Shown here: piece after piece, positions 33,672 to 41,889 of the stretch
Numbering within the stretch: position 1 is the stretch's first letter
Layout: each line of letters starts with the position of its first letter
Made by a program: the position numbers and the translations under genes
Notes under the pieces: generated by a model
Told to the model about the DNA's origin: nothing
Seen by the model: only the letters and a program-made list of their open reading frames with translations
Databases searched by the model: none
Source of the DNA: Desulfuromonadaceae bacterium
Lineage (GTDB): Bacteria; Desulfobacterota; Desulfuromonadia; Desulfuromonadales; Geopsychrobacteraceae
Reading direction: 5' to 3'
DNA length: 48,337 bases
Assembly: GCA_030595055.1 (NCBI GenBank)
Contig: JAUVEB010000002.1
Coordinates: 1 to 48,337, forward strand

Positions 33672-33871
33672 TTATCCAACTTCCATTAGAGCAACATAAC
33701 AAGGCTGCCGCTAACCGTATAGTAAAATAATACCCTGAGGACGAGGGCTTGTTTATTTCCACGAAAACAAAACTTCACTGACAACAAACTTCTGTCTTGA
33801 CGATTATCGGCATATCGGGCAGTTTATTACGCTCTTAATATTCCGCCTGATACCGTTGTTTTTATGTAACT

Positions 33872-34016
33872 ATTCAGAATGGGTGCTGATGGTCTGGTGC
33901 CGCCTATGCCAAGGTCCGCCGATTGAATGAATATATGGCCATCCCCGGGGCTTGACTGTCGCCATCCGGGCGACAATCTCCCTTTCCATGGGCATCACCG
34001 GCACATTTTACTGAAT
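33872..34016. repeat. dispersed inverted-terminal repeat family D, copy 2 (with about 42-bp internal insertion)
   Basis: ATTCAGAATGGGTGCTGATG...GATTGAATGAATATATGG...CTTTCCATGGGCATCACCGGCACAT...CTGAAT. Confidence 0.8.
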
Positions 34017-34062
34017 CAGTTACGTTTTTATTATCATAAACACCGTCAAAAAAGGAGTCGAG

Positions 34063-34659
34063 ATGTCTGCTGAAAAAAAGATCGGGGCCAAGGTTCGGCA
34101 AATGCGCGATGCCAAGCAGATGACCGTCGAGCAGTTGGCCGAGCAGAGTCAATGTCATGCCGATCAGATCCGGCAGATTGAGGATGGAGCTCTGGTTCCC
34201 TCGCTCACCCCGCTGATGGAAATTTCACGAGCACTGGGCGTACGACTCGGCACCCTTCTGGACGATGATCCGCTGGATGGTCCGGTGGTGTTTAATTCCA
34301 CCCAGACGCCAAACGTGATCCGCTTCTCCGGTAAGGACCCCAACGCGACCTGTAGTAATCTCGATTTCTACTCCCTGGGCGCCGGCAAGCGCGACCGCCA
34401 CATGGAACCTTTCATGATCGATGTTAAACCCAGAACCGGTGAAGCCCCGCCCCTCTCCGCTCATGAGGGCGAGGAGTTCATCTTTGTCCTCTCCGGTGCC
34501 ATCCAGATCAACTACGGTCGCACCACCTACGACTTAGAAGCTGGAGAAAGTATCTACTACGACTCTGTCGTACCCCACGATGTCCATGCCAAGGGCGATG
34601 ACAGCGCACGCATCCTGGCTGTCGTTTATGCCCCCTGCTCGGGGACGGAGAAGCCGTAA
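34063..34659 (+). CDS. XRE-family regulator with C-terminal cupin domain
   Basis: [33 protein letters not shown]; cupin [20 protein letters not shown]...[14 protein letters not shown]. Confidence 0.92.
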
Positions 34660-36545
34660 TGCCCCATACTGATAAAACCATCGGCGCTTTTTTTGAAGAC
34701 CAGGTCCAACGCCTGCCGGATCATGAATTCATCGTCTACCCCGACCGCGACCTGAGATTCACCTTCAGCCAATTTGACCAGCGCGTCAACCAACTGGCCA
34801 AAGGCCTGCTGGCCATCGGTATCGGCAAGGGAGACCATGTCGGCATCTGGGCGACCAACGTGCCAGACTGGACGACTTTCATGTTCGCCACCGCCAAAAT
34901 CGGCGCAGTGCTGGTCACCGTCAATACTCACTACCGCAGCTTCGAACTGGAATATCTGGTCCGTCAGGCCGACCTCAAAGCGTTGGTGCTGATCGACGGT
35001 TTTCGCGACCACGACTACCTGAAAACAGTCAACGAACTCATTCCGGAACTCGGCTCCTGCCAGCGCGGCAAGTTGCAGAGCGAGAAGTTTCCGAACCTGA
35101 AGAACATCATCTTCATCGGCCCGGAAAAACACCGCGGCATGTACAACACACGCGAACTGATGCTGCTCGGCGACCAGTACGACGATACGGAGTTGAACGC
35201 GATAAAGTCATCCCTTGATCCGCATGATGTCATTAACATGCAGTACACCTCCGGGACCACCGGTTTCCCGAAAGGGGTCATGCTCAGCCACTACAACATT
35301 CTCAACAACGGCTACTACATCGGAGAACGACAGAAGTTCACTGAAGCCGACCGGCTCTGCCTGCCGGTGCCGTTGTTCCACTGCTTCGGCTGCGTGCTCG
35401 GCGTGATGGCGGCACTCACCCACGGTACCACTTTGGTCCCGCTCGAAGTTTTCGACCCACTGTTGACACTGGCGGCAGTACAAAAAGAGAAGTGTACCGC
35501 GATCTACGGTGTTCCAACCATGTTCATTGCCGAACTTGACCATCCGATGTTCGATATGTTCGACCTCAGTTCTCTGCGCACCGGCATCATGGCCGGCTCG
35601 CCCTGCCCCAGGGAAACCATGCGCCAGGTGATGGAGAAGATGCACTGCCGCGACATCACCATCGCCTACGGGTTGACCGAGGCTTCACCGGTCATCACTC
35701 AGACCCGCACCGACGATTCTATCGACCACCGGGTCGGTACGGTCGGCATGTCCCTGCCCGAAATCGAGGTCAAGATCATCGACCCCGACACCGGCATCAC
35801 GCTCAAACCCGGTCAGCGTGGCGAGCTCTGCTGCCGTGGCTACAGCATCATGAAGGGCTACTACAACTTGCCCGAACAGACCACGGAAGCGATCGATACC
35901 GAAGGCTGGCTGCACTCCGGCGACCAGGCAGAGGTGGACGTAAACGGCTACTACCGTATCACCGGCCGCATCAAGGACATGATCATCCGTGGCGGCGAAA
36001 ATATCTATCCACGTGAAATCGAGGAATTTCTCTATACCATGGATGGGGTTCGAGAGGCACAGGTGGTCGGCATTCCGGACGAGCGATACGGCGAAGTGGT
36101 CGGCGCCTTCATCATTCGCAAAGAGGGCGTTGAACTGACCGAAGAGGATGTCATCGATTTCACCCGCTCCCGGATCGCGCCTTATAAAAAGCCGAAGTAC
36201 GTCTTTTTCATTGACGCCTTTCCGCTCACCGCCAGCGGCAAGATTCAGAAATACAAGTTGCGCGAGAACGCCTGTGAGCGTCTCGGAATCAAAGACGTCA
36301 TGTTTGAGAACAACGCGGCGGCCAAACCGGAAGTCGCAAAACCTTCGGTGACGATTCACGCCGACCTGTGCAAGGCCTGCGGCCTCTGCATAATTCATTG
36401 CCCGAAGAATATCCTGAGCGCCTCCGATCAAATCAACGAGCTCGGTTACCCGACCACCTTGGTCACCGGCGACGACTGCAGCGGCTGCGCCAACTGCTAT
36501 CTGGTCTGCCCCGAACCAGGGGCGGTGACCGTGATCCGCCCTTAG
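34659..36545 (+). CDS. AMP-forming acyl-CoA synthetase fused to C-terminal 2[4Fe-4S] ferredoxin domain
   Basis: [48 protein letters not shown]; then [16 protein letters not shown]...[22 protein letters not shown]. Confidence 0.95.
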
Positions 36546-41439: not shown

Positions 41440-41889
41440 CTACGACAAAACCAGGGAAATCAGCTCCAGTAAAGGCCCCGGGTAAACCCCGAAAACCAGT
41501 AGCAGCGCAACACAAGTGCCGAGCAAAACAAACTCCTCGCGGCAACCCGAACGCAATTGACAGGTGGAGCGCTGCTGCATGAAAAGAACAATGATCGGTC
41601 GCAAATAGTAATAGAGGGAAATCAACGAGGTGAGAACACCGATCACAGCCAACTCCGCGTAGCCATGACGCAAGGCCGCGTGAAAGATACCGAACTTACC
41701 AAAAAACCCGGCCAATGGCGGAATCCCGGCGAGAGAGAAAAGAAAAACGGCCCGCGCTGAGGAGCGGTGCGAGTGCAGGTAGCCCAAACCGCAGATCTCC
41801 CCATAATCTTGGACCTCTTCATTTTCCAGGGCCCAGGAGGTAATCACACCGAAGGCTCCGAAAATCGCGCAGGAGTAAAAATGGGTTCC
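41440..41889 (-). pseudogene. nuoN: 3' remnant of NADH-quinone oxidoreductase subunit N
   Basis: FYSCAIFGAFGVITSWALENEE...ARAVFLFSLAGIPPLAGFFGKFGIFHAAL; upstream frame closed by stop at 41890-41892. Confidence 0.85.

Follow-up and report, generated by a model that had tools for sequence, protein, structure and literature searches.

The window, as the whole stretch of 48,337 nucleotides analysed here is called, is part of a 2.44-Mb MAG (85% complete) whose nearest named relatives are Desulfuromonadales. It contains four genes that follow one another on the forward strand (Table 1): a regulator, an acyl-CoA ligase joined in one reading frame to a ferredoxin-type delta subunit, and the alpha and beta~gamma genes of a 2-oxoacid:ferredoxin oxidoreductase (OFOR). 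Regulator stop and ligase start overlap in the sequence TAATG. Alpha begins 45 bp past the fused gene with a GGAG upstream of its TTG, and the start of beta~gamma overlaps the alpha end by 8 bp, so the prediction that the alpha and beta-gamma genes directly follow the fusion is borne out. The four genes would form one operon, in which the XRE-cupin regulator would control a two-enzyme module.

Table 1. Features of the locus, with positions counted from the first letter of the window
Feature	Position	Strand	Description
Upstream element CTTGACGATTATCGGCATATCGGGCAG, 27 bp, candidate promoter/operator	33796..33822	+	several relatives carry a similar element 5′ of their XRE gene
Repeated element, ~156 bp	33868..34023		at least 40 copies in own genome, 78-92% identity
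XRE-family HTH + cupin regulator, 198 aa	34063..34659	+	Pfam HTH_3/HTH_31 and Cupin_2
Fused ligase-delta gene (P0001), 628 aa	34659..36545	+	single ORF, zero internal stops
AMP-forming acyl-CoA ligase part	34659..36278	+	residues 1-540; AMP-binding (PF00501), residues 12-402, 340 bits (Pfam cut-off 29.9); AMP-binding_C (PF13193), residues 453-528, 74 bits (cut-off 24.5)
Linker	36279..36347	+	residues 541-563; variable, predicted disordered
2[4Fe-4S] ferredoxin-type OFOR delta	36348..36545	+	residues 564-628 and stop; dicluster ferredoxin Fer4_7, residues ~564-624, 32.9 bits (Pfam cut-off 27)
OFOR alpha, VorB type (P0002), 351 aa	36591..37646	+	TTG start; POR_N and PFOR_II
OFOR beta~gamma, fused (P0003), 471 aa	37639..39054	+	TPP_enzyme_C (PF02775) and POR (PF01558)
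C-terminal NuoN/Mrp-type antiporter subunit fragment	41440..41847	-	PF00361 positions 228-294 only

The original prediction described the continuous reading frame as a complete acyl-CoA synthetase followed by two 4Fe-4S motifs, and the Pfam matches and cysteine positions agree with it. Both cluster motifs of the delta part are intact and hold eight cysteines (C571/574/577/581 and C607/610/613/617). The ligase P-loop and the TASGK motif with K528, the catalytic A10 lysine, are invariant in nine fused sequences. By its domains and motifs the ligase part is an AMP-forming acyl-CoA synthetase of the ANL superfamily. Its best NCBIfam family is the fatty acid CoA ligase PRK12583 (784.6 bits, under the cut-off of 832), and the best Foldseek matches of P0001 are 4-coumarate:CoA ligase and other members of its superfamily, with ligase-superfamily proteins only among the best 50 listed. 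The Macs structure 3ETC is absent from the best 60 PDB matches of P0001, which places the protein outside the Macs family. The PorD/KorD model TIGR02179 is absent from the best 25 NCBIfam matches listed for P0001. The ferredoxin domain is identified as an OFOR delta subunit, as had been claimed, by gene position and homology, because 12 unfused relatives have a separate delta gene placed between this ligase and alpha.

The genes downstream encode the parts of a 2-oxoisovalerate:ferredoxin oxidoreductase (VOR). Alpha passes the NCBIfam VorB model NF005507 with 462.7 bits (cut-off 399), a score below that of the order's other VorB group (512-549 bits), and falls outside IorA with 52 bits on the IOR_alpha model (cut-off 650.9). 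The TPP-binding beta part carries four proximal-cluster cysteines (29, 32, 62 and 223 of P0003) and is accompanied by a POR-type gamma and the 2[4Fe-4S] delta. The beta and gamma parts score below the curated OFOR models (PorB_KorB, 120 versus 261.9 bits; PorC_KorC, 56 versus 81 bits). The enzyme thus resembles VOR in its alpha and in its delta, alpha and beta-gamma domains, and differs from it in having delta covalently joined to a ligase.

The full fused reading frame is found in 8 of the 136 genomes of the window's order, Desulfuromonadales, and again in two (G136 and G403) out of 297 genomes from one planctomycete order. One of the eight, G059, is a 3.2-Mb genome on a single contig. An assembly artefact or frameshift is ruled out by these ten genomes, the single-contig one included. 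A sample of 395 genomes from the phylum showed no ligase-delta fusion outside the window's order. Twelve further genomes of the order keep ligase and delta as separate genes, out of frame but in one operon. At the 13 unfused loci checked (these 12 genomes and contig C228), 61-76 nt separate the homologous parts, never in frame, and delta starts near the ligase stop or overlaps it; the corresponding gap in nine fused genes is 22-23 codons and always in frame. Contig C228 (L121, 1-3733) places a second, unfused ligase-delta copy in the window's own MAG (G000). Its DNA shares 98.6% identity with a locus from another genus versus 77% with a fused orthologue, so it is probably mis-binned and is left out as evidence. 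On the ligase tree the fused state needs about four changes, at least three of them forced by supported branches, which rules out a single origin. Fusion or fission has thus been repeated, with gains and losses both possible, a pattern that fits a modest benefit or neutrality. No account of a covalent ligase-delta fusion was found in the literature searched, a body that leaves most subscription journals outside it. The fusion appears to be undescribed, while the neighbourhood of ligase and OFOR is already known.

Median dN/dS values for seven fused genes are 0.067 for the ligase, 0.52 for the linker and 0.080 for the ferredoxin part. Purifying selection acts on both sides of the linker, and the linker itself is nearly unconstrained. 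In the AF2 model, built from 70 sequences (pLDDT 83.5; a nine-sequence input gave 51), ligase blocks are mostly above 90, residues 547-558 lie below 50 and blocks of the ferredoxin part range from 46 to 73. The model points to a protein that is likely composed of two folded domains on a flexible tether. As the linker is both the least conserved and the least confidently predicted segment, it suggests tethering rather than a built channel. A stop lost between two adjacent, co-translated genes with zero functional gain would also leave a nearly unconstrained linker, and would be in keeping with the short junction (61-76 nt) of unfused relatives and with about four changes of the fused state. This account of the junction is nevertheless rather unlikely, since the frame is intact in eight genomes of the order and two planctomycetes, and G136 has kept it although alpha and beta-gamma are no longer adjacent. 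All that such a neutral origin denies is a benefit of the tether; the pathway proposed below is compatible with it.

In the planctomycete G136 the fused gene is on contig C245, alpha on C198 (62%) and beta~gamma on C154 (63%), and the three contigs carry unrelated neighbours. No close delta other than the fused one was found in this genome. If the MAG is sound, its OFOR would take delta in trans from the ligase gene. The contig of G403 stops ~85 bp after the fused gene. Three more genomes of the planctomycete order have delta as the gene next to the ligase, and alpha and beta-gamma were not seen nearby in these (one contig is short). In planctomycetes, ligase and delta remain together while the other OFOR genes disperse. 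Beside the lone OFOR alpha of the planctomycete (L194:370-5681), an acyl-CoA dehydrogenase and both ETF subunits lie on the opposite strand.

The wider association was counted over the order's ligases in the 76-100% clade, at 33 resolved loci that leave out three at contig ends (L121, L124 and L152). An OFOR adjoins the ligase in 26 of the 33 and is of three kinds. Delta, alpha and beta~gamma of the VOR type lie downstream of the ligase at 20 loci, and a PorGDAB-type OFOR lies downstream at three (L148, L151 and L157; typed on L021). At another three (L123, L167 and L169) the OFOR is upstream, with a gamma that carries an NAD(P)-linked flavoprotein and Fer4 as fused parts. No OFOR was seen beside the ligase at the other seven (L119, L153, L161, L162, L165, L166 and L170). 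Shared descent of a single operon does not easily account for three kinds of OFOR beside one ligase clade. Together with a parallel operon in methanogens, these counts sustain the claim that ligase and OFOR belong together. All 13 alphas of P0002's score class among 60 relatives adjoin this ligase. The original prediction also called for a check that the fusion always neighbours an OFOR. This holds in the order, where alpha follows the fused gene in eight of eight genomes and beta~gamma in the seven with a long enough contig, and fails in the planctomycete G136.

An XRE-cupin homologue is found directly 5′ of the ligase in nearly all relatives, as far as methanogens and Bacteroidota. Because it is present even where no OFOR adjoins, the regulator-ligase pair is probably the older unit, and the OFOR would be its frequent partner. 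The OFORs with a gamma-NAD(P)H-oxidoreductase-Fer4 fusion are like the window in being tied to this ligase clade and in having an electron domain fused; unlike the window, gamma is joined to an electron-input domain and the ligase is separate. At two of these loci (L123:1100-3493 and L167:146-2428) one protein combines gamma with Fer4 and a GltD-like flavoprotein that binds NAD(P); its gene lies upstream of regulator and ligase, and the enzyme is an NAD(P)-linked variant of OFOR.

In Methanolobus and Methanohalophilus a parallel operon has the order XRE-cupin, 558-aa ligase, delta, alpha and beta~gamma. Over its length the L035 ligase scores 906 bits against 3ETC (Macs of Methanosarcina acetivorans). 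In 28 of 30 Methanosarcinaceae loci the XRE-cupin regulator precedes this ligase, the orthologue of M. acetivorans Macs, and delta and VorB lie directly 3′ of it. The same arrangement is present in one Methanobrevibacter and in one genome of the window's order. The preferred substrate of M. acetivorans Macs is 2-methylbutyrate (PMC10455477). In the alpha tree the window clade, which includes the planctomycete, is sister to the Macs-linked VorB clade (SH-aLRT 97 on the joining branch), and VorB with separate beta and gamma falls outside both. Two ligase families placed before related OFORs are the main support for the order acid to acyl-CoA to 2-oxoacid, and for branched-chain acids. The window ligase belongs to another family than Macs, so the case for 2-methylbutyrate runs via the OFOR partner only. 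The Methanosarcinaceae operon is like the window in its regulator-ligase-delta-alpha order, its AMP-forming ligase, its VorB alpha from the sister clade and, where seen, its fused beta-gamma; it differs in that its ligase is of the medium-chain Macs family and its delta is a separate gene. Between regulator and ligase, L036 (7566-7979) and L037 (7562-7975) in Methanolobus/Methanohalophilus encode a 138-aa protein that looks thioesterase-like by eye and has no NCBIfam match.

The pathway suggested by this arrangement would begin with the ligase, which would activate a short organic acid with ATP and CoA to an acyl-CoA. The acid is most likely branched-chain (2-methylbutyrate, isobutyrate or isovalerate). 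The VOR-type OFOR would reductively carboxylate the acyl-CoA with CO2 and low-potential electrons to a 2-oxoacid, which would then be transaminated to an amino acid. Electrons would pass from ferredoxin through delta and the beta cluster to TPP, with the ligase carried along as part of delta. With delta as its C-terminal domain, the ligase would be a stoichiometric OFOR subunit, and the complex would have the composition (ligase-delta)-alpha-(beta-gamma) with a flexible 23-residue tether. Taken as a whole, the genomic evidence makes it reasonably probable that the locus encodes a tethered module that activates short branched (or aryl) acids and carboxylates them reductively. A more specific and only tentative idea is that the assembly may act as a covalently tethered, ATP-driven acid carboxylase, a single complex turning free acid and CO2 into a 2-oxoacid, in which local delivery of acyl-CoA by the ligase, itself the bearer of the electron-entry clusters, helps an unfavourable carboxylation.

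The same enzymes could also run in the opposite direction, an alternative named in the original prediction. Transaminated amino acids would then provide 2-oxoacids that the OFOR oxidises to acyl-CoA with reduction of ferredoxin, and the reversed ligase would release the free acid and make ATP from AMP and PPi. In amino-acid fermenters, VOR/IOR-type OFORs work oxidatively, and OFOR genes there adjoin ADP-forming ligases or Pta/Ack (PMC13285125; PMC13290082). However, AMP-forming ligases normally favour acyl-CoA formation, as has been argued for the arylacetate ligase-IOR pair of Bacteroides (PMC13285125), so the AMP-forming ligase of the window favours the direction of acid activation. The sister OFOR clade is found in methanogens and is usually viewed as anabolic there, and acyl-CoA dehydrogenase, kinase and ADP-forming ligase were not seen in the window operon. 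Such a catabolic role is quite improbable. Still less probable is that ligase (from acid) and OFOR (from 2-oxoacid) both feed a shared pool of branched acyl-CoA primers for membrane lipids. Why parallel producers of one product should be locked into a 1:1 fusion is not obvious, and the membranes of archaea, in which the parallel operon occurs, are not made from fatty acids. Branched-chain amino acid auxotrophy as the reason for the module is ruled out by ilvC, which is present in the window's own genome and in 56 of the 60 genomes searched. Valine and isoleucine are thus probably made de novo, and the carboxylating module would serve salvage.

OFOR substrates are poorly predicted by sequence. 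Some VOR-like enzymes prefer aromatic 2-oxoacids and carry no recognisable motifs (PMC13290082). The module could act on aryl acids (phenylacetate, indoleacetate) or on a simple acid (acetate, propionate), a variant that competes on substrate and not on mechanism. In Bacteroides an AMP-forming arylacetate-CoA ligase adjoins an IOR, an arrangement that has been read as biosynthetic (PMC13285125), and in relatives of the window, ligases of the window's clade occur with PorGDAB-type OFORs. The Bacteroides pair is like the window in its neighbouring ligase and OFOR and its proposed biosynthetic role; its OFOR is of the IOR type with other subunit fusions and aryl substrates, and a ligase-delta fusion has not been described for it. 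Against such substrates stand the IOR-alpha score of P0002 (just 52 bits, cut-off 651) and the pairing of the sister alpha clade with a branched-acid ligase, which make an aryl or simple acid somewhat unlikely. Benzoate would be the least likely of the acids originally listed, because ligase-joined OFORs act on alkyl- or aryl-pyruvates. A further lead comes from Phe65 of P0003, which aligns with Lys49 of StOFOR beta, the residue that binds 2-oxoglutarate. The K49I change in StOFOR abolished activity on 2-oxoglutarate (PMC5020499), and several 2-oxoglutarate enzymes carry Lys or Arg at this position. The non-basic Phe65 would thus speak against 2-oxoglutarate, though as no more than a lead, given that KorAB of H. 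thermophilus is also without a basic residue, and it does not point to any one substrate.

Rumen anaerobes are known to convert 2-methylbutyrate and similar acids into amino-acid precursors by carboxylation; M. ruminantium, for example, requires 2-methylbutyrate, which it is believed to carboxylate toward isoleucine (PMC2812497). The enzymes that activate these acids have rarely been assigned. Concrete candidate ligase-OFOR pairs come from the fusion and from the Macs-VOR operon that parallels it in methanogens. If the proposed complex is real, it would amount to a natural assembly that fixes CO2 in two steps and has the activating enzyme built into the carboxylase, and it would be useful for pathway engineering.

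Upstream of the operon, CTTGACGATTATCGGCATATCGGGCAG has one exact match in the window and 0 in 100 shuffles. A search for a palindromic operator 5′ of the regulator found no shared palindrome. Between CTTGACGATTATCGGCATATCGGGCAG and the regulator sits the ~156-bp repeated element, which is absent from this position in the nearest relative (L009). It belongs to a MITE-like family and may alter expression of the operon. Downstream, the NuoN/Mrp-type fragment on the opposite strand is a probable gene remnant.
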